Position numbers and translations under genes: made by a program
The notes under the pieces: generated by a model
Seen by the model: the letters and a program-made list of their open reading frames with translations, nothing else
Databases searched by the model: none
What the model was told of the DNA's origin: nothing
Virus record (IMG/VR): IMGVR_UViG_3300006925_000191
Coordinates: 1-21,281 of that record
Source of the DNA: a virus
Reading direction: 5' to 3' (one strand)
Length of the DNA stretch: 21,281 nt
Part shown: positions 266-12,194 of the stretch, one piece after another
Layout of the letters: every line of letters starts with the position of its first letter
Position numbering within the stretch: the stretch's first letter is position 1

Positions 266-490
266 ATGGAGTTACCAACTGAAGAAGAGTTTACTGTCAT
301 CTGCTCAGAACATCTCTGGACTTTCACGATGGAGTCAGACTTAAATAAAGCTATGAAGGGCTTAAAGAATTATCACTACATGAAAAAGGTTATCAAGGAA
401 GGAGGCTCCAAGTATAAAAAAATACACAGGAAAGCATTTGAAAACTTCATTGATAGAACAAAAGAAATAGGTGCAGGCTATGTTAAATAA
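266..490 (+). CDS. Small hypothetical phage protein, 74 aa
   Basis: The product is a 74-residue protein with an acidic N-terminus (ELPTEEEF) and a lysine-rich middle and C-terminus. No domain is recognised. The ATG at 266 follows the previous stop by two bases, with AAGGAG at 253-258 at good spacing, so the start is well supported. The gene overlaps the next one by 11 bases. It is probably co-transcribed with its neighbours, and its function is unknown. Confidence 0.65.
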   Translation: MELPTEEEFTVICSEHLWTFTMESDLNKAMKGLKNYHYMKKVIKEGGSKYKKIHRKAFENFIDRTKEIGAGYVK

Positions 491-671
491 AAGCCCTGAA
501 GACTTAATGGTTTTAGAGTCTATAATAACTCAAGTAATATCTCAAATACAGGTGGATATATACGAAGGGGAGCTTGAACCACTGTTTGAAATGCTATCGT
601 TTGTTGACCTAAATATTTTAAAAGGTTACTTAAGTGAAGCAGAATTTCAGGAAAAGTTAAGATGGAATTAA
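480..671 (+). CDS. Small hypothetical phage protein, 63 aa
   Basis: This is a leucine- and glutamate-rich protein that looks mostly helical, with patterned hydrophobics (VLESIITQVISQIQVDI). No family is recognised. A GTG at 471 is in frame, but the ATG at 480 is preferred and still overlaps the previous gene by 11 bases. The ribosome-binding site is weak (AGG at 470s), which fits coupling to the upstream gene. It is the last gene before the AT-rich regulatory stretch at about 672-804. Confidence 0.6.
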   Translation: MLNKSPEDLMVLESIITQVISQIQVDIYEGELEPLFEMLSFVDLNILKGYLSEAEFQEKLRWN

Positions 672-697
672 ATAAAACAAAAAGGATAACTAAATGA

Positions 698-735
698 CTT
701 ATAAGTTAGTAAGTTCTTACGAACTAACTTATAAG
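698..735. repeat. 13-bp perfect inverted repeat (operator or RNA hairpin)
   Basis: The arms CTTATAAGTTAGT (698-710) and ACTAACTTATAAG (723-735) are exact reverse complements around a 12-base centre. The centre could form a second register (GTAAG, TT, CTTAC at 709-720). The repeat lies just downstream of the predicted start (about 739) of the leftward promoter at 746-774. It could be the 5' stem-loop of a leftward RNA or a protein-binding operator. No U-tract follows directly on either strand, so it is a poor intrinsic terminator. Confidence 0.75.
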
Positions 736-745
736 ACATTAAGTT

Positions 746-774
746 ATTATACCACAAACAACGACGACTGTCAA
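746..774 (-). promoter_or_regulatory. Perfect sigma70 promoter on the minus strand
   Basis: Read on the minus strand, TTGACA (774-769) is separated by exactly 17 bases from TATAAT (751-746). A TG one base upstream of the -10 box makes it an extended -10. Transcription would start near 739 and run leftward, antisense to the small genes at 39-671. The 12 bases TTGTGGTATAAT are identical to the -10 region of the rightward promoter at 2020-2048, which argues against chance. No leftward gene is visible in 1-739, so the product may be a non-coding or antisense RNA. Confidence 0.7.
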
Positions 775-804: not shown

Positions 805-1062
805 ATGGAAACTTTATTCAACTTAATCGCAAAATCAACACACTCATTAGCTTTTAGCGGCAAGAAAAACGGTACAGTATTTGGAAAGTCTTTCATTGTA
901 AGAAAACGAACAAGCAAGAACCGCTTCGAGGTTAGCAAAGGAGAGTGCTTCAATATCTTTCATTGCTACAAGTGGGCTTTTTATGTTCAACACAAACAGT
1001 CTCGAAGCATTAGCTTCAAGAACATCAAAGATATTAATGGCGTTGAAGGAGTACAATCATAA
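805..1062 (+). CDS. Small basic hypothetical protein, 85 aa
   Basis: The frame stays open upstream to an ATG at 694, which has a good AAAGGA (681-686). The longer reading would translate the inverted repeat and the antisense promoter into a low-complexity Y/T/N-rich leader. I therefore prefer the ATG at 805, with AAGG near 790-794, but the 122-residue form starting at 694 is possible. The protein is rich in lysine, arginine and serine (KKNGTVFGKSFIVRKRTSK) and has two cysteines near its middle. No family is recognised. Its stop overlaps the DUF932 start as TAATG, so the two are probably translated together. Confidence 0.55.
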   Translation: METLFNLIAKSTHSLAFSGKKNGTVFGKSFIVRKRTSKNRFEVSKGECFNIFHCYKWAFYVQHKQSRSISFKNIKDINGVEGVQS

Positions 1063-2012
1063 TGACTATCATGCAAATGTTCCCAAACAACTCAGCACTT
1101 CAAGCCATCCGAGAGGGTGGCTACGGCTCAGCAGATTTTGATATAGCTACAGCACCATTAGTTTATGAGGCTAGAACAGACGAGTGCGATGAAATAACAG
1201 AGCGTATGTATAGTACCAAATCTGTAATCTACCGCACCGATACTGGTGAAGAGTTAGGAGTTCATGGTCATGGCTATAAGCCAGTGGCTCCCAAGAAGAT
1301 GATAGATGTTACCCGCAATATTATTGAGCGTTCAGGGCTTAGCGTTGATGGCATCGAAGAGATTATCAGAACTTCTCACGATGGCTCAAGAACTTTTGTG
1401 CAATACAAGTTACCTGCTCATACTTATAATACTCCAGATGGTGACACTGCATCCCTTGGTCTGCTTGCAGTGTCAAGCTTTGACGGGACTTGGCCGTTTA
1501 TGATTAGTGCTGCAGCTATACAATGTGCTTGTACAAACCTACAAGTTTTTATCGGCGGTGAGGTTGCAGTATTTAAAGCTAAACATACTCGCAACTTAAA
1601 CATTGAGGTAGGTGCAAGCGTTGTAACTAAAGCTCTAGATGTTTTCGAGAATCAACGTGACTTGTGGGGTAAGTGGAGCAATGAAAAACTAACAGACTTT
1701 GATGCTTTCTTAAGTATTGTACAGGCTTTAAAAGCTGACTCAGCCCAAAAGATTATTGACGATACTTACTGGAAAACAGGTGAAGAAATAATCCGCCTTA
1801 TGCCGAGGTCTAACCCATCACTTGAATATATCTTCAGTGCTTGGCACAAGTACAAGACACGCTTAGGTTCTAATCGTTGGGCTTTGTTTAATGCCATGAC
1901 TGACTGGTCTACTCATGCAACAGCACAGCGTAAGGATGCTGTAATCAATATAGCTTCAACACAGAACACTAGACAAGCACTTGTTCAGCAACACTTTTCA
2001 AAAGCAGCATAA
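1062..2012 (+). CDS. DUF932-family phage protein, 316 aa
   Basis: The protein belongs, by motif recognition, to the DUF932 (phage/plasmid-like TIGR03299) family found in many phages and plasmids. Its biochemical role is not established. Hallmarks seen are SSFDGTW (about 138-144), a cysteine-containing CACTNLQVF (155-163), KHTRN (174-178) and the C-terminal RWALFNAMTDWSTH (272-285). The length is normal for the family. The start at 1062 overlaps the previous stop (TAATG) and has GAAGGAG at 1045-1051. Later in-frame ATGs at 1071 and 1077 are less well placed. It sits just ahead of the replication block and is separated from it by a promoter, so it probably belongs to an earlier transcript. A DNA-transaction role is guessed from context only. 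Confidence 0.85.
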   Translation: MTIMQMFPNNSALQAIREGGYGSADFDIATAPLVYEARTDECDEITERMYSTKSVIYRTDTGEELGVHGHGYKPVAPKKMIDVTRNIIERSGLSVDGIEEIIRTSHDGSRTFVQYKLPAHTYNTPDGDTASLGLLAVSSFDGTWPFMISAAAIQCACTNLQVFIGGEVAVFKAKHTRNLNIEVGASVVTKALDVFENQRDLWGKWSNEKLTDFDAFLSIVQALKADSAQKIIDDTYWKTGEEIIRLMPRSNPSLEYIFSAWHKYKTRLGSNRWALFNAMTDWSTHATAQRKDAVINIASTQNTRQALVQQHFSKAA

Positions 2013-2019
2013 TAAAAAC

Positions 2020-2048
2020 TTTACTTTTACAACAACTTGTGGTATAAT
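2020..2048 (+). promoter_or_regulatory. Sigma70-type promoter ahead of the replication genes
   Basis: The -35 box TTTACT (2020-2025, 4 of 6 consensus) lies 17 bases from a perfect TATAAT (2043-2048) with an extended -10 TG. It sits in the 74-base gap before the ssDNA-binding protein gene. A small dyad (GTGG 2039-2042 with CCAC 2050-2053) brackets the -10 box and could be an operator or chance. The sequence TTGTGGTATAAT is shared with the minus-strand promoter at 746-774. Confidence 0.7.
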
Positions 2049-2086
2049 GCCACTTCATTTTAACACCAACCAATAGGATAAATACT

Positions 2087-2512
2087 ATGCCAATATTATC
2101 AGGAACAGCTTACTGGGCAAGCGTAACAACCCCCAACACCACTTATGACCCAGTGTACACAGTAAACTTAGTGGTCGATGAAGACACTGCACAGAACTTT
2201 CGCTCCGAAGGTTTCACAGTGAAGGACATGGACGAAGGCCCTGCAATAGTGCTTAAGCGTAAAGTCCACGGCCCTAACGGGATGATTCGCCAAGCGCCTA
2301 AGCTTGTAGATGCTCAGAAGAATCCAATCGACGAGCGTGTAGGTAACGGCTCTTCAGTTAAGGTTCAGTACAAGGAGTGGGAATCTGTATACAAAGGAAA
2401 GACTTTCAAAGGTCTAGACTTTCAAGCTATGCAGGTTTTAGATTTAGTATCTGTCGGTTCCGTTGACGGTTCCGAGTTCGATGTAGAAGACGAAATGGAG
2501 GAAGCTATCTAA
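2087..2512 (+). CDS. Single-stranded DNA-binding protein, 141 aa
   Basis: This is likely the phage ssDNA-binding protein, functionally equivalent to T7 gp2.5. It would coat single strands at the fork and in recombination. The order of motifs resembles the phage single-strand-binding family: an N-terminal SGTAYWASV, a strand-rich core with YTVNLVVDEDT (about 24-34), a conserved ERVGNGSSVKV (83-93), and an acidic tail (128-141) ending DEMEEAI. Acidic tails in these proteins contact polymerase and helicase. An AGGATAA Shine-Dalgarno precedes the ATG, which is the first gene after the promoter at 2020-2048. The next gene starts immediately after its stop. The assignment is by pattern and position, not by a search. 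Confidence 0.75.
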   Translation: MPILSGTAYWASVTTPNTTYDPVYTVNLVVDEDTAQNFRSEGFTVKDMDEGPAIVLKRKVHGPNGMIRQAPKLVDAQKNPIDERVGNGSSVKVQYKEWESVYKGKTFKGLDFQAMQVLDLVSVGSVDGSEFDVEDEMEEAI

Positions 2513-2743
2513 ATGAAAACATATAGGCGAGACGGTATCTCTTATGATGTCAGCTTGCTTGACGAAGAAGCCCAAGGATTATTCGGGCTTCTTCAACAGG
2601 CAATGATAAAAGTAAGAGGAGCAAGCGATGAGGTTCAGTTGTTCCAAGCTGGCGCTCAACACATTAAAGTTTTATTTGAAGATAAGCTTACGGATGAAGC
2701 TATCACCGAAGAAGAGGATATGGAAGTTGCAATCGAAGGCTAA
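2513..2743 (+). CDS. Small acidic phage protein, 76 aa
   Basis: This small, largely helical protein has an N-terminal YRRDGISYDVSLLDEEAQ segment and a strongly acidic end (TEEEDMEVAIEG). The pattern is reminiscent of small phage proteins of the DUF6447 kind, which I suggest only weakly. The ATG directly abuts the preceding stop, with GGAGGAA at about 2497-2503 inside the end of the ssDNA-binding protein gene. Its place between the single-strand-binding protein and the primase-helicase suggests an accessory replication role, which is inference. Confidence 0.65.
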   Translation: MKTYRRDGISYDVSLLDEEAQGLFGLLQQAMIKVRGASDEVQLFQAGAQHIKVLFEDKLTDEAITEEEDMEVAIEG

Positions 2744-2758
2744 TAACGAGGTGACAAA

Positions 2759-4420
2759 ATGTCGTTTGTTAAATTTCATCTGCCCTGCAATTCTTGTGGG
2801 GGCAGTGACCCAGTAAGCCAGAACGCTGATGGGTCTGCGTATTGCTTTAGCTGCAATACTTTTTTTAAAGACTACAGCACACCGGAAGTGCAACAACAAG
2901 ATACCGTAACGGACTTTACAAGGTATCAACCCAATGGAACAGGTAGCGGAAACAGCTACAACGCCTTAACCGATAGAGGTATTAGCATTGATACAGCCAA
3001 AAAGTATGGCGTTAAATCTACTACACTTAACGGAAAGGTGACGAGCCACCACTATCCTTACTTCAACAAAGGCGAGGAAGTAGCTACAAAAGTTAGAAAG
3101 CTTAACAAGCAGTTTGCTTGGAAAGGTAACTCAAAAGAAACAGGGCTGTTTGGAGAACAGTTGTTCAAAGCAGGCGGTAAGTTTATTACATTAGTAGAAG
3201 GAGAGTGTGACGCTATGGCGGCATACGAACTGCTCGGAAGTAAGTGGCCTGTAGTATCAATCAAATCGGGAGCGCAAGGAGGCGCTCGTGATGTCAAGAA
3301 TAGCTTAGAGTTTTTAGAGTCTTTCGACACAGTTGTAATATGTCTTGACTCAGACCCTGTTGGCAAGGAAGGGGCTAAGGCAATCGCCAAGCTGCTCACG
3401 CCAAACAAAGCTAAGATAATGACATTGCCCGAAGGGTTCAAAGACCCTAACGATATGCTCAAAGAGCGCAAGCATTCCACGTTTGTTAATTGTTTTTGGG
3501 ATGCAAAAGTCTACACCCCCTCTGGGATTATGAATCTATCCAACCAGTTAGACGAATACAAGCGTTTACGTACAGAAAAGCTTCCGTCAATCCCTTATCC
3601 TTGGAAGGGCTTAAACACTAAGCTAGAGGGCATGAGGGCCGGAGAGTTAATAACACTGACTGGCGGTACTGGCCTTGGTAAATCTTCTGTGACCAGAGAA
3701 CTAGAACACTGGCTCATCAACCACACTAAAGATAACGTAGGTATTGTAGCTCTTGAAGAGAACTGGAGCCGTACTGCCGAAGGTATCATGGCTGTTGAAG
3801 CCAACGCTAAGCTTCACCTAGACAGCGTTAAGAACAAGGTCGGAGACGACAGGCTCGAACAATACTACCGCAAGGTTTTCATGGGAGAAAACGAGGGTCG
3901 TGTTTGGATTCATGCTCACCTTGGTGTCAACAACCTAGAAGATATATTCAGCAAGCTGCGCTACTTGATTGTAGGCTTAGACTGTAAGTGGGTTGTTGTT
4001 GACCACCTTCACATGCTAGTGCTTCAAGCCTTGGAGGGTGACGAGAGAAAAGCTATTGACGGTATCATGCATAGGCTTCGCTCTCTAGTTGAAGAGACAG
4101 GTGCAGGTATGATTCTAGTCTCACACCTTCGTAGAGTTGACGGCAATCGTGGACATGAGAATGGTATCGAAACAGGACTATCACATCTTCGAGGCTCTCA
4201 GAGTATCGCCCAGTTGTCAGATTGTGTTATATCTTTAGAGCGCAACCAACAATCAGACGACGAGATAGAGGCATCCACTACCAAGGTTCGAGTGCTTAAG
4301 TCTAGGTATACTGGAGATGTTGGCGTAGCCTGCAGCCTTCTATATGATGCCGACACTGGAAGACTAGAAGAAGTTAATGACGGTGATAACTATGATGCCT
4401 TTGACGGAGACGAGCTATGA
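2759..4420 (+). CDS. T7 gp4-like DNA primase-helicase, 553 aa
   Basis: The protein is a bifunctional replication enzyme that unwinds the fork and primes the lagging strand. The N-terminal zinc-binding domain has Cys10, Cys13, Cys29 and Cys32. The TOPRIM primase core shows VEGECDAM (Glu148) and LDSDP (Asp197, Asp199). The RecA-type helicase shows Walker A GGTGLGKSS (302-310), Walker B VVVDH (412-416), the SHLRR switch (His456) and an arginine-finger segment SRYTGDVG (515-522) matching the T7 arrangement. The tail is acidic (DGDNYDAFDGDEL), as in T7, where it binds the polymerase. Length is close to T7 gp4 (566). GAGGTG at 2748-2753 supports the start. It overlaps the polymerase gene as ATGA. 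Confidence 0.97.
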   Translation: MSFVKFHLPCNSCGGSDPVSQNADGSAYCFSCNTFFKDYSTPEVQQQDTVTDFTRYQPNGTGSGNSYNALTDRGISIDTAKKYGVKSTTLNGKVTSHHYPYFNKGEEVATKVRKLNKQFAWKGNSKETGLFGEQLFKAGGKFITLVEGECDAMAAYELLGSKWPVVSIKSGAQGGARDVKNSLEFLESFDTVVICLDSDPVGKEGAKAIAKLLTPNKAKIMTLPEGFKDPNDMLKERKHSTFVNCFWDAKVYTPSGIMNLSNQLDEYKRLRTEKLPSIPYPWKGLNTKLEGMRAGELITLTGGTGLGKSSVTRELEHWLINHTKDNVGIVALEENWSRTAEGIMAVEANAKLHLDSVKNKVGDDRLEQYYRKVFMGENEGRVWIHAHLGVNNLEDIFSKLRYLIVGLDCKWVVVDHLHMLVLQALEGDERKAIDGIMHRLRSLVEETGAGMILVSHLRRVDGNRGHENGIETGLSHLRGSQSIAQLSDCVISLERNQQSDDEIEASTTKVRVLKSRYTGDVGVACSLLYDADTGRLEEVNDGDNYDAFDGDEL

Positions 4421-6180
4421 GTAACCTAGTGTTTGACATTGAGGCAGACGGTCTTGACCCCACTAAGATATTCTGCATTGTTGCTCAAGATGTAGACACG
4501 ATGGAAGTGTTTAAGTTTGACAACACTCAACTCGAAAAAGGCTATGGTCTCTTACGAGCTGCAGATAAACTAATCGGTCATAACATTATTGGTTATGACC
4601 TTCCGGCCATCAAAGACATTACCGGACTTGACCTAAGCAACAAGAAGATTGTAGATACACTGGTACTTTCTAGATTGTTTAAACCTACCCGTGAGGGTGG
4701 TCACGGCTTAGAGTCTTGGGGCTACCGCCTCAAGTTCAACAAGGGTGACTACGGTGCTAACCAAGATGCTTGGGATGCGTACTGCCCTGAGATGCTAGAG
4801 TATTGTAAGCGTGATGTAGAACTGAACACTAAAGTATATCAGCAGTTGCGTGTCGAGAGCCGAGGCTTCACACCTACCGCAGTAAAGCTTGAGCATTCAG
4901 TTGCTAAGATTATAGACGAGCAGCGCCGCAACGGTTTTGAGTTAGACATGCGTAAAGCTATGTTGCTTGTTGCAATGTTCCAAGAGAAGCTAGATGCTAC
5001 AGAATCTGAAGTGCATGAAACATTCAAGCCTAAAGTTATTGTAGATATTCTTAAGCCAAAGTATACCAAAAGCGGAAAGCTTGCTAAGGTTGCTGACGGC
5101 CCAGATGGTAAGGGTGTTAGACTTACTGACGAAGAGTATGACATCATGGTTCAAACCAACAAGCCTCTCAAGCGTGAGACCCACATAGAGTTTAACTTGG
5201 GTTCTCGTAAGCAGATAGGTGAGTATCTTGTTGAGGCCGGATGGACACCTAAGAACTTTACACCTACTGGTCAGCCAATTGTTGACGAAGGTACACTGTC
5301 TAAGGTTAAGAATATACCTGAAGCTGCACTGATTGCTACGTACCTAATGCTTCAAAAGCGTTTAGCACAAGTAAACAGTTGGATAAAAGCAGCCGACCCC
5401 GACAACAGGGTGCGTGGATATGTTAATCCTAACGGGGCAGTGACGGGCCGCATGACACATAGCCACCCCAACATGGCCCAAATACCTAGTAGCACCTCTC
5501 CCTACGGAAAAGAATGTAGGTCTTGTTGGACTGTTAAAGAAGACAACAGGCTTGTGGGTATTGATGCTTCGGGCTTAGAACTTAGAATGCTTGCACACTA
5601 TATGAACGATAAGGAGTATACAAATGAAATCCTCACTGGAGACATTCACTCAGCTAACCAAAGACTTGCAGGTCTTGAATCAAGAAGTCAGGCGAAGACT
5701 TTCATCTATGCCCTCCTATACGGAGCAGGAGATGCAAAGCTTGGGGCAGTGGCTAAGCAGGGCAAAGCAAGAGGCAGAGAGTTGCGAAACAAGTTTCTTG
5801 ATAGTCTCCCATCATTTAGGTCTCTTGTCGGAAGGGTACAAAGAGAAAGTAAAAAAGGATTCCTCAAGGGGTTAGATGGTCGTAAGCTTTCTATACGCTC
5901 TGAACATGCAGCCCTTAACACATTGCTGCAATCTGCAGGCGCTATAGTTATGAAGGAAGCCCTCGTAATTCTTGACGGTTACTTGAAAGAACATGGGATT
6001 GATGCTAAGTTTGTAGCTAATGTTCACGATGAGTGGCAGATTGAATGTGGAGTATCTGATGCAGTAGACGTAGGAAAACTAGGAGTTGAGGCTATCGTAC
6101 AAGCAGGCCAAAACTTAAACCTTAACTGTCCCTTGGACGGTGATTATAAAGTAGGGGAGGCTTGGCATGAAACCCACTAA
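4417..6180 (+). CDS. T7-like family A DNA polymerase, 587 aa
   Basis: This is the replicative polymerase with a 3'-5' proofreading domain. Exonuclease motifs are DIEADGL (Asp7, Glu9), GHNIIGYD (55-61) and YCKRD (129-133). Polymerase motif A is IDASGLELR (Asp383). Motif B is RSQAKTFIYALLYGAG (423-438), with Tyr431 at the place of E. coli Phe762. Motif C is VHDEW (His537, Asp538). The T7 enzyme is 704 residues. From memory of its sequence, most of the deficit lies before the FN motif at 259-260, where T7 carries its thioredoxin-binding insertion, so thioredoxin clamping is doubtful here. The start overlaps the helicase stop (ATGA). The Tyr variant is usually linked with fast lytic replication. 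Confidence 0.97.
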   Translation: MSNLVFDIEADGLDPTKIFCIVAQDVDTMEVFKFDNTQLEKGYGLLRAADKLIGHNIIGYDLPAIKDITGLDLSNKKIVDTLVLSRLFKPTREGGHGLESWGYRLKFNKGDYGANQDAWDAYCPEMLEYCKRDVELNTKVYQQLRVESRGFTPTAVKLEHSVAKIIDEQRRNGFELDMRKAMLLVAMFQEKLDATESEVHETFKPKVIVDILKPKYTKSGKLAKVADGPDGKGVRLTDEEYDIMVQTNKPLKRETHIEFNLGSRKQIGEYLVEAGWTPKNFTPTGQPIVDEGTLSKVKNIPEAALIATYLMLQKRLAQVNSWIKAADPDNRVRGYVNPNGAVTGRMTHSHPNMAQIPSSTSPYGKECRSCWTVKEDNRLVGIDASGLELRMLAHYMNDKEYTNEILTGDIHSANQRLAGLESRSQAKTFIYALLYGAGDAKLGAVAKQGKARGRELRNKFLDSLPSFRSLVGRVQRESKKGFLKGLDGRKLSIRSEHAALNTLLQSAGAIVMKEALVILDGYLKEHGIDAKFVANVHDEWQIECGVSDAVDVGKLGVEAIVQAGQNLNLNCPLDGDYKVGEAWHETH

Positions 6181-6355: not shown

Positions 6356-6767
6356 AGAAGATAGAAAAAAATTCGACTTAGATTTAGCATACGGTGAAGT
6401 GCGTGAAGACAAAATTGCTGATATGCTTACAGGAAAAAAGATAGAGGTTAAGTCAGAGCGTGACCTTTGGCAGAAGACAGGAAACATTTGCATTGAGTAC
6501 AAGTCTTACGGTAAGCCGTCAGGTATTGACGCTACTGAGTCTGACTACTGGTTTCATAACTTATGTATTGGTGATGATGAATACTGTACACTGGTTTTCA
6601 ATACCGCCACACTTAAGAAGATTGTTAAGCGCCTAGATAGTTTTAAAACTGTATCGGGTGGTGACAACAGGGCAAGCCAGATGTATTTGTTAAATCTTCA
6701 GAAGCTATTTTCTTCTGATGTAATCAAAGCATTTAAGGAGCTAGAAGATGAACCAGAAGCAGCTTAA
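6342..6767 (+). CDS. Putative PD-(D/E)XK-fold nuclease, 141 aa
   Basis: The protein probably has a restriction-endonuclease-like fold. An N-terminal helix carries Glu19/Glu22, followed by a lysine-glycine turn and the strand motif KIEVKSER (Glu35, Lys37), the ExK pair of the catalytic core. A second strand, GNICIEYKSYGKPSGI (47-62), is typical of a phage-encoded subfamily. The usual separate aspartate of the motif is not obvious. It may act as a resolvase or nicking enzyme in DNA processing, but substrate cannot be told. It overlaps both neighbours (14 and 20 bases), and the translation signal lies within the zinc-ribbon gene. The C-terminus is acidic. Confidence 0.6.
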   Translation: MKPCKEDRKKFDLDLAYGEVREDKIADMLTGKKIEVKSERDLWQKTGNICIEYKSYGKPSGIDATESDYWFHNLCIGDDEYCTLVFNTATLKKIVKRLDSFKTVSGGDNRASQMYLLNLQKLFSSDVIKAFKELEDEPEAA

Positions 6768-7611
6768 TACTTTAGTACCCGACATCTATGAACTTCTTGA
6801 GAACCTTTCAAATGGTGAGCCTCTTCCAATAACGGAGGAGGCGCTTGATAAAACAATGGCATCTATGAAAGAAGCTATACTTCATTGGGCAACACCTAGA
6901 CCCAGAGACACTGACTTCACTGTCCGTATGTCTAACGTAGGCAAACCATCTAGACAAATGTGGTTTGAGAAGCGTGACCCTAATGGACGAGGTAGCGTTG
7001 ACGGAGCAACACAAATTAAGTTTCTATACGGCCATGTGTTAGAAGAGATTGTATTAATGCTTGTACGTATGGCAGGACACAATGTAAGCGACGAACAGAA
7101 AGAGGTTGTAGTTGACGGCATTGTAGGACACATGGACTGTAAGATTAACGGGCAAGTAGTTGACGTTAAGTCTGCATCTAAGTTTGCATTCAACAAGTTT
7201 AGAAACGGAACACTTGGTTCTGACGACCCCTTCGGTTATCTCGGACAGCTTGCAGGCTATGAGAAAGCAGAAGGTACAAATGATGGTGGCTTTCTTGTTA
7301 TCAATAAAGAAAGCGGTGAGTTGTGTATGTATGTTCCGGACGACTTAGATAAGCCTAACATTGAAACAAAAATACACACGCTATTGGATGAATTAAAACT
7401 TGACACGCCCCCTGAACTATGTTATAATCCCATACCTGATGGCAAGAAGGGAAACATGCAATTGCCAAAGGGATGTTCGTGGTGTAAATATAAGCACGAA
7501 TGTCACAAGGATGCCAATGATGGCAAAGGTCTTAGGACTTTCCAATACTCTAATGGGTATAGATACTTTACCCACATAGAGTCTGAACCTCAAGTGGATG
7601 AGATATTATGA
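6748..7611 (+). CDS. RecB/Cas4-like PD-(D/E)XK exonuclease, 287 aa
   Basis: This is a probable 5'-3' exonuclease that would degrade host DNA or process phage DNA ends. Motifs in order are a helix with GHVLEE (Glu99/Glu100), GHMD (Asp130), VVDVKS (Asp139, Lys141) and GQLAGY (Gln167). A C-terminal cysteine set follows: Cys225, Cys243, Cys246 and Cys252 in CSWCKYKHEC. Cas4/AddB-type relatives hold an Fe-S cluster with one cysteine from the N-terminal part. Here the usual place reads GKPSRQMW with serine, so Cys225 may supply the fourth ligand. AAGGAG at 6735-6740 supports the start. A perfect promoter lies within its 3' part at 7400-7428. Confidence 0.85.
   Translation: MNQKQLNTLVPDIYELLENLSNGEPLPITEEALDKTMASMKEAILHWATPRPRDTDFTVRMSNVGKPSRQMWFEKRDPNGRGSVDGATQIKFLYGHVLEEIVLMLVRMAGHNVSDEQKEVVVDGIVGHMDCKINGQVVDVKSASKFAFNKFRNGTLGSDDPFGYLGQLAGYEKAEGTNDGGFLVINKESGELCMYVPDDLDKPNIETKIHTLLDELKLDTPPELCYNPIPDGKKGNMQLPKGCSWCKYKHECHKDANDGKGLRTFQYSNGYRYFTHIESEPQVDEIL
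7400..7428 (+). promoter_or_regulatory. Perfect sigma70 promoter inside the exonuclease gene
   Basis: TTGACA (7400-7405) and TATAAT (7423-7428) are separated by exactly 17 bases on the plus strand. They lie within codons for the exonuclease segment LDTPPELCYN. Transcription from about position 7435 would cover the last 60 codons of this gene and then the downstream set from 7608 through nrdJ. It could raise expression of the endonuclease and nucleotide genes independently of the replication block. Confidence 0.7.
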
Positions 7612-11259: not shown

Positions 11260-11481
11260 GTGAAAGCAAAGGAAGCTAACATACTATCATTTAAAATAAT
11301 TGTCAATCATTCGGGGGCCATCCTAACGGAACTAGGTGGTCTCCCCGAAGACCGATTACATGAAGTGTTTAAAGGTGATGAACTTAAGTTAGTGCGTAAG
11401 ATTATTAGAGACGCTAAACCTAAGTTAGAACAGATGCACGATTACCTAGAGCGTGAACTTACTGCTTACGCTACCACTTAG
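11260..11481 (+). CDS. Small hypothetical protein, 73 aa, GTG start
   Basis: This is a small soluble protein that appears largely helical in its second half (DELKLVRKIIRDAKPKLEQM). No family is recognised. It starts with GTG at 11260 behind a clear AGGAGAG at 11246-11252, 12 bases after nrdJ, so it is probably on the same transcript. It is the last gene of the right-reading arm. Its final 11 bases overlap the end of the oppositely oriented gene ending at 11471. A GC-rich imperfect hairpin at about 11312-11345 lies within it without a T-tract. Confidence 0.65.
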   Translation: MKAKEANILSFKIIVNHSGAILTELGGLPEDRLHEVFKGDELKLVRKIIRDAKPKLEQMHDYLERELTAYATT

Positions 11482-11761
11482 ATTTATTAGCCCAATATGC
11501 TGCAGACATTTTGCCCTTAGCAATATTCTTAGCATGTCGGGCTTTAAAACTAGCACGTTTCTTCTTCATCTTTTCTGACTCTCCGGCTTTGGGTTTGCCT
11601 GCTGTCTTCGCTCCCTGCTCCCCGTATCGGATTGTCTTAATCTTATCGCCTTCTTTAGCCACTACAATGTGGCTTTTCTTTGGGTGGTTGGGTGTGCGCT
11701 TTGGCTTATTGAATCCGCTTACACCTGCTCTTGCTAAACGTGGGTCTTTTTTCTTGCTCAT
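11471..11761 (-). CDS. Lysine-rich basic phage protein, 96 aa
   Basis: The protein has about 23 Lys and 6 Arg against 6 acidic residues by my count. Distinct stretches are DPRLARAGVSGFNKPKRTP near the start, KSHIVVAKEG (29-38), and a C-terminal SFKARHAKNIAKGKMSAAYW that looks conserved among phage proteins I have seen, though I cannot name the family with certainty. Such charge suggests DNA binding, possibly with packaged or newly injected DNA. It is the last gene of the left-reading arm, overlaps its upstream neighbour as ATGA, and converges with the right-reading arm with an 11-base overlap. Confidence 0.75.
   Translation of the reverse strand: MSKKKDPRLARAGVSGFNKPKRTPNHPKKSHIVVAKEGDKIKTIRYGEQGAKTAGKPKAGESEKMKKKRASFKARHAKNIAKGKMSAAYWANKSKW
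11657..11681 (+). terminator. Possible intrinsic terminator for rightward transcripts
   Basis: AGCCAC (11657-11662) and GTGGCT (11669-11674) form a 6-bp stem with a 6-base loop, followed on the plus strand by TTTTCTTT. It lies about 180 bases past the convergent gene ends, inside codons for the conserved KSHIVVAKE motif of the opposite gene. The stem is short and codon-constrained, so the call is weak. Confidence 0.3.
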
Positions 11762-12012
11762 TTTCTATAGCTCCTAGTTTTCTTTGCAATCTTCTTGGGC
11801 TGAGAACTGTGCTGCTTTCCCTTTTTAGTGTCAGCTCTTTTCTTTTTAGACGTAGCTGCATACTCTTTCTTAGTTAAAGCCTGCCTAGCCTTCTTGGGCA
11901 GATAACGCTCTCCAGTTGCTTTCTTTCCTTGGGTACTAGGTTTACCTGACTTGGTTCCCCACTCTTCTTTAGTCCATTTCTTCAGGGACTTCTGTGATTT
12001 TTTAAGTGGCAT
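11758..12012 (-). CDS. Lysine-rich basic protein, C-terminal half of a DUF5872-type protein, 84 aa
   Basis: About 25 Lys and 5 Arg against 5 acidic residues make it extremely basic. It carries SLKKWTKEEWGTKSGKPS (9-26) and RYLPKKARQALTKKEYAATSK (36-56), a module I recall from bacterial and viral proteins where it follows a WSARKAQ module in one chain. Here that first module is the separate upstream gene at 12012-12194. The start overlaps that gene's stop as TAATG, with GGAGG just upstream in the late transcript. Its function is not known. DNA or virion association is inferred from charge and late position. Confidence 0.8.
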   Translation of the reverse strand: MPLKKSQKSLKKWTKEEWGTKSGKPSTQGKKATGERYLPKKARQALTKKEYAATSKKKRADTKKGKQHSSQPKKIAKKTRSYRK

Positions 12013-12194
12013 TACTTGTATCCTCCACCTTTTGCTTTATATTCTTTTGCAAGCATCTGAGCCTTTCGTGCGCTCCACTGTCCTGCTTTACCACCTTTAG
12101 AGCCTGCTTTAATTTTATTGAATAGGTTCTTACGCATAGTAGGTTTAGTATAGTTACCTGCTTTATTTACTGTCGATTTCTTTTTAGCTGGCAT
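12012..12194 (-). CDS. Lysine-rich basic protein, N-terminal half of a DUF5872-type protein, 60 aa
   Basis: The protein has about 15 Lys and 2 Arg with a single acidic residue. Its C-terminal half reads KAGSKGGKAGQWSARKAQ and then LAKEYKAKGGGYK, which I recognise as the first module of DUF5872-type proteins. The N-terminal 25 residues are a basic, low-complexity extension. It overlaps the holin stop and the next start by single bases (TAATG on both sides), which suggests the three small genes and the holin are translated together. The role is unknown and probably linked to the following gene. Confidence 0.8.
   Translation of the reverse strand: MPAKKKSTVNKAGNYTKPTMRKNLFNKIKAGSKGGKAGQWSARKAQMLAKEYKAKGGGYK

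Follow-up and report, generated by a model that had tools for sequence, protein, structure and literature searches.

The DNA analysed here, all 21,281 bases of an IMG/VR record of a marine virus of bacteria (IMGVR_UViG_3300006925_000191; hereafter the window), carries an exact host-type sigma70 promoter at the left border of its replication genes. This promoter points leftward, against three small early genes, and its predicted RNA would begin with a strong hairpin. Promoter and hairpin are conserved together in relatives carrying the adjoining METLF gene, and the promoter persists beside the DUF932 gene in relatives that have no hairpin. With moderate confidence, drawn from comparative analysis, we propose that this is a pO/oop-like system: a conserved leftward promoter for host sigma70 that lies at the left border of a METLF-DUF932-replication operon and would make a hairpin-first, non-coding antisense RNA to counter or silence the early mRNA. 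A consensus host promoter directed against the early genes and kept clade-wide marks an early/replication control point in phages for which no RNA polymerase gene was detected.

An exact leftward promoter adjoins a hairpin

746-774, minus strand: leftward sigma70-type promoter, exact; -35 TTGACA at 774-769, spacer of 17 nucleotides (nt), TG at 754-753, -10 TATAAT at 751-746
739-740, minus strand: leftward RNA predicted to start here, 6-7 nt past the -10, from promoter spacing
686-747, strand not assigned: hairpin with arms at 686-710 and 723-747 (25 nt, 92% complementary)
709-724, plus strand: conserved apical motif GTAAGTTCTTACGAAC, with coding-strand fold GU-AA-GU-UCUU-AC-GA-AC, from searches with an unconstrained loop, family alignments and pair counts

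All 12 consensus bases are present in the promoter, with TGG immediately 5' of TATAAT on the minus strand, as in an extended -10 sigma70 promoter (TTGACA, 16-18 nt, TATAAT, TGn); a preliminary description of this DNA had called the match perfect, and it is exact. In sequences simulated with the dinucleotide content of the window, 12/12 sites with 16-18 spacing are expected 0.015 times per window on both strands together, and 0.0013 times with an extended -10. The match is not due to chance. A second 12/12 site, TTGACA-17-TATAAT with TG, lies at 7400-7428 on the plus strand, inside the gene at 6748-7611, and there are no others in the window. Only some relatives retain it, depending on what their codons allow, and it seems to be a by-product of the codons for LDTPPELCYNP.

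The predicted start at about 739-740 places the beginning of the leftward RNA at the base of the hairpin, in line with the start near 739 and close to a repeat that had been described previously. The 13-bp inverted repeat of that description (698-710 and 723-735, loop of 12 nt) is perfect and can be extended to the 25-nt arms; it is unique in the window with up to 3 mismatches allowed, and none such occurred in 100 shuffles. The strong stem-loop anticipated there is also borne out, the RNA of both strands folding at -23 to -24 kcal/mol with a z of about -7. A covariance model of the hairpin family described below scores the window copy at 55.4 bits (697-736, plus strand). The stem is nearly all A-T, so the G+C-rich stem of an intrinsic terminator is lacking, and the T run that should directly follow it is missing in several lineages; the hairpin was rejected as an intrinsic terminator on these grounds. 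Left of the promoter, the minus strand showed no canonical terminator.

Promoter and hairpin are conserved together in METLF relatives

We compared 31 METLF loci, some of them near-duplicates, leaving out L239 and L253, which start too near the gene to show the site. The hairpin and an extended leftward promoter were found in all loci with readable upstream DNA. The promoter takes the form TTGAC[AT] or TTAACA, 17 or 18 nt, TA[TC]AAT, with TG, and the spacer sequence varies freely. The main hairpin arms are common to all these loci except L249 (81% METLF), whose site was read by eye and later by script: its arms are wholly different (AATTTAATAA/TTATTAAATT), yet TTGACA-17-TATAAT with TGG is present. 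L222 and L113, which encode 62% METLF homologues, retain TTGACT-17-TACAAT with TG next to another hairpin of about 15 bp without the shared apex. Across these three unrelated hairpin sequences, all 15 representatives place the predicted RNA start 0-4 nt from the base of the hairpin. In a set of 78 non-redundant copies of the hairpin, an opposing promoter scoring at least 12 is confined to those at METLF.

The comparison that the preliminary description had called for, namely whether relatives conserve promoter and repeat and not the translated frame, came out in favour of promoter and repeat. Its statement that no leftward frame explains the promoter agrees with our finding of just one such frame, which has 23 codons, starts at the ATG at 739 and is not conserved. 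A leaderless leftward peptide from this ATG (MSYKLVRK) was rejected because the frame or the start codon is lost in relatives.

The promoter persists in relatives without the hairpin

We scanned the 200 nt upstream of the DUF932 gene in 23 distinct relatives that carry this gene but neither METLF nor the hairpin. A minus-strand sigma70-like promoter scoring at least 10.5 was detected in 21/23, mostly TTGACA-16-TATAAT or TAAAAT, as against 2.8% of shuffles and 0 of 415 control windows, taken in the same loci upstream of other genes. A rightward promoter of equal strength (at least 10.5) occurs in 13/23. The leftward promoter at DUF932 is missing from the more distant hairpin phages G007, G008 and G012. 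Its retention in hairpin-less relatives means that the leftward promoter does not depend on the hairpin; it is a clade-wide feature. This persistence was absent from the preliminary description, as was the sharing of the hairpin apex with other 5' untranslated regions (UTRs).

In hairpin-less relatives, short palindromes (ACCTTTTAAGGT, ACTTTAAAGT and CCTTTTAAAGG) lie directly 3' of the leftward -10 and are possible operators. Loci with such palindromes left of DUF932 include L030, L033, L037, L054, L058 and others.

Gene setting

36-263, 266-490 and 471-671, plus strand: three small early genes (open reading frame list), which the leftward RNA would oppose
805-1062, plus strand: METLF gene, 85 aa, function unassigned; first gene right of the promoter
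1062-2012, plus strand: DUF932 protein gene (PF06067, E=1.6e-17)
2087-6180, plus strand: replication module of Gp2.5-like single-stranded DNA (ssDNA)-binding protein, T7-like primase-helicase and DNA polymerase A (PolA)

Since the small genes at 36-671 lie on the plus strand, the leftward RNA would be antisense to them, the orientation given in the preliminary description. The METLF protein has no Pfam match. A ribonucleotide reductase gene, listed after PolA, also lies to the right of the promoter, and long minus-strand reading frames converge from the opposite side, including that of a 2,385-aa virion/lysis-type protein. The closest cultured polymerases are those of the Pelagibacter phages HTVC103P, 104P and 115P (about 48%); in HTVC103P and HTVC115P the genes converge in the same way, and the hairpin is absent.

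An extended promoter, TTTACT-17-TATAAT, lies at 2020-2053 (plus strand) 5' of the ssDNA-binding protein gene. Its -10 is covered by a small hairpin, GTGGTATAATGCCAC, and the relative L253 has a similar sequence, TGTGGTATAATGCCAC. At 11471-12194 (minus strand), several small and highly basic proteins are encoded in a row; they match PHROGs of unknown function, and relatives of these proteins are present in all hairpin phages compared.

Comparison with lambda pO and proposed mechanism

The lambda promoter pO, a leftward host promoter bordering the replication genes, opposes the main rightward early transcription and makes a short non-coding RNA that is antisense to cII, the gene upstream; it is documented to lower rightward transcription past itself, and both polymerase interference and antisense pairing have been proposed (PMC3985674). 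The same geometry is found in the window, in every METLF relative whose upstream DNA can be read and in 21/23 of the more distant relatives. There are also differences: the hairpin of the window is at the 5' end of an RNA that is only predicted, whereas oop has a terminator at its 3' end. No sequence or gene homology links the site to lambda, and in place of lambdoid replication homologues (cII, O, P) the window has a T7-like primase-helicase and PolA module.

By analogy, host sigma70 holoenzyme would fire leftward from this promoter, and a non-coding RNA would begin at the hairpin base and run antisense into the early mRNA of the small genes. Rightward early transcription into the replication genes would then most likely be dampened, via RNA polymerase collision, antisense pairing or both. 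The 5' hairpin may stabilise the leftward RNA or serve as a pairing site; as in this lineage the RNA would carry a sequence exactly complementary to the family apex, pairing in trans with other early-gene copies is conceivable.

Several points weigh against this proposal. No consistent terminator would yield a short RNA, and the T run that follows the hairpin is limited to some lineages. The leftward RNA of L222, L113 and the hairpin-less relatives would have no apex motif, so trans pairing cannot be its general function; a purely trans-antisense role through the shared apex was rejected because L222 and L113 retain promoter and hairpin without that apex. The family folds on the coding strand, so the local hairpin may serve the rightward mRNA, and the palindrome may instead be an operator at the DNA level. 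Of the roles offered in the preliminary description (antisense regulator, stabilised RNA or repressor-controlled switch), the antisense-oriented promoter and the predicted hairpin-first RNA that they share hold up; the antisense role finds partial support, and the repressor-controlled switch is possible but unlikely.

The hairpin belongs to a family with a fixed apex

Searches with the loop left unconstrained returned the identical loop each time. The 18-nt core was found in 62 viral stretches, GTRAGTTCTTACGAAC in at least 119, and a second core class, GTAGAGTATCTTACGATAC, in 62. The resulting catalogue holds 204 hairpins from 105 loci, at least 145 of them non-redundant, in uncultured phages. 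Core matches with long flanking stems are clearly distinct from stemless ones; genome contigs gave 7 matches to the 18-mer, with stems of at most 5 bp, about the number expected by chance. As the hairpin pattern has no match in genome contigs and the 18-mer matches there are chance-like, an attachment site or a host-derived sequence was discarded.

The apex, GU-RA-GU-UCUU-AC-GA-AC, is conserved and the stem arms are variable. All 12 outer pairs vary on both sides in two ungapped alignments, A1 and A2, with covariation scores of 0.718 versus 0.160 in shuffled alignments and 0.614 versus 0.171, respectively. The best common fold consists of an outer stem, GU(A)/(U)AC, a tandem mismatch RA/GA, GU/AC and the loop (A)UCUU. 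Its inner part is a proposal only, because the inner positions hardly vary; changes in inner pairs mostly keep pairing via G.U (UUGC 9, UUAT 1), and one (UUUC) breaks the pair. An early parse with a bulge (GURA bulge, GUUC/GAAC, UUAC loop) was replaced by the tandem-mismatch parse, both being still possible.

The covariance model finds several copies per genome, all on one strand, with low-scoring antisense echoes, and no copy in the hairpin-less relatives or in three cultured phages tested. The apex motif recurs, in the sense direction, in 5' UTRs of other genes of the same and of unrelated phages. Rfam gave no match above gathering score for the window or three family loci, BLAST of both cores against cultured phages gave none, and searching the literature with the core sequence turned up no paper on phages. 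The hairpin family is apparently unreported so far, and would then be the bigger discovery. Present several times per genome, at 5'-UTR positions, and marked by strong covariation around a fixed apex, it would offer a direct handle on gene regulation in abundant, mostly uncultured marine phages.

Among known phage elements, the SAS/ESAS repeats of cluster K mycobacteriophages, whose function is unknown, are likewise multi-copy inverted repeats located 5' of some start codons and co-oriented with genes, but ESAS keeps its arm sequence around a variable spacer, whereas this family varies its arms around an invariant apex (PMC3203893). The window contains no copy of the 13-bp SAS GGGATAGGAGCCC, even with 2 mismatches allowed. 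Early promoters of the N4 virion RNA polymerase resemble the family in having a partly variable stem and a fixed loop 5' of early genes, with a GNA-type loop on the template strand; they differ in size, with a stem of 5-7 bp and a 3-nt loop as opposed to a stem of 12-20 bp and a bulged or tandem-mismatch apex (PMC4496689). The window hairpin differs further in having host-type promoter boxes.

Polycistronic early phage mRNAs can carry repeated hairpins between genes, as with T7 RNase III sites and protein-binding hairpins such as lambda boxB. The present family is likewise repeated between phage genes; RNase III sites are not known to keep a fixed apical sequence, and neither an N-like protein nor boxA was identified here. 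A co-occurrence search for a partner protein returned replication and packaging modules as the shared genes, with no clear RNA-binding candidate.

A gene very often found directly after a hairpin copy encodes a 207-aa protein (HCKAVQEYSQR; L004, 3437-4057). On visual inspection the protein looks similar to helix-hairpin-helix DNA glycosylases; Pfam gave no match.

Alternative explanations

The hairpin could be a sense-strand 5'-UTR element, that is, a site in the rightward mRNA for an RNA-binding protein or RNase of phage or host, its overlap with the promoter being incidental. We regard this as possible, though clearly less probable than the pO/oop-like reading. A start codon with a Shine-Dalgarno-like sequence follows within 130 nt in 121/145 hairpins (median 39 nt), compared with 19/145 on the opposite strand. 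Isolated mismatches, counted in distinct contexts that are partly related by phylogeny, comprise 18 G.U versus 3 A.C and 20 A.G/G.A versus 8 T.C/C.T, which identifies the coding strand as the folded strand; the absence of a G.U preference in an early count of few sequences was overturned by this larger set. The covariation over shuffled alignments in A1 and A2 also fits an RNA element. In most METLF relatives, however, a rightward promoter lies between hairpin and METLF, which would leave the hairpin outside that mRNA, and the leftward promoter and hairpin are co-positioned in three sequence-unrelated forms. Moreover, about 22/145 copies (for example, in L144, L151, L157, L257 and L297) have a sense-strand TTGACA 26-50 nt 5' of the apex, where about 3 are expected. 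A normal start from it would land at the apex, inside the hairpin, and the resulting RNA would lack the left arm; the excess speaks for read-through mRNAs with the hairpin or for a role at the DNA level.

A wider version appears somewhat more doubtful still: a new phage RNA regulon in which some factor recognises one structured 5'-UTR hairpin common to early genes of many uncultured phages, and in which a dedicated antisense promoter of the METLF clade makes a hairpin RNA complementary to the apex that could control all copies in trans.

A DNA-level switch, with the palindrome acting at the promoter start as an operator for a phage repressor or as a cruciform extruded under supercoiling, seems unlikely. 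It would suit a palindrome that abuts the -10, the short palindromes past the -10 in hairpin-less relatives (ACCTTTTAAGGT type), and stem changes that go nearly always from Watson-Crick to Watson-Crick pairs with few G.U; C(GTA[A])G is also a possible reading of the template-strand apex, which would give it a GNA-type loop as in N4 promoters (PMC4496689). But it is the complementarity of the arms that is kept and not their sequence, which a dimeric repressor would not need, and G.U exceeds A.C six-fold on the coding strand. A PF00940 search detected a T7/N4-type RNA polymerase gene in 0/28 records, with the control genomes equally silent; given that result and its limit, a promoter for a T7-like RNA polymerase was also set aside.

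We consider it very unlikely that the leftward promoter is a replication signal that yields a primer RNA for, or activates by transcription, an origin at the edge of the replication module. The site is AT-rich and adjoins DUF932, ssDNA-binding protein, primase-helicase and PolA genes in the whole clade, but lambda oop RNA is itself dispensable as a primer (PMC3985674). GC skew tracks gene orientation only, leaving no mark at the promoter, and was dropped as uninformative about an origin.

Coincidence, or a real peptide encoded at 694-804 (MTYKLVSS), is highly improbable: the chance expectation of the promoter is about 0.001. In the window and L003 the frame runs without a stop into METLF, but most relatives have it shifted or interrupted by a stop and L249 lacks it, so that a conserved peptide was rejected.

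Further hairpin groups

Two further groups of hairpins were noticed in these loci. One shares the loop TCACAAGTGACTT on stems of about 25 bp (L007 15497, L009 13248, L073 8621 and L077 6265), and the other the loop GAAGCTCTATGGAGCTT on stems of 14-20 bp (L009 13653, L113 6066, L116 2430 and L194 12427).
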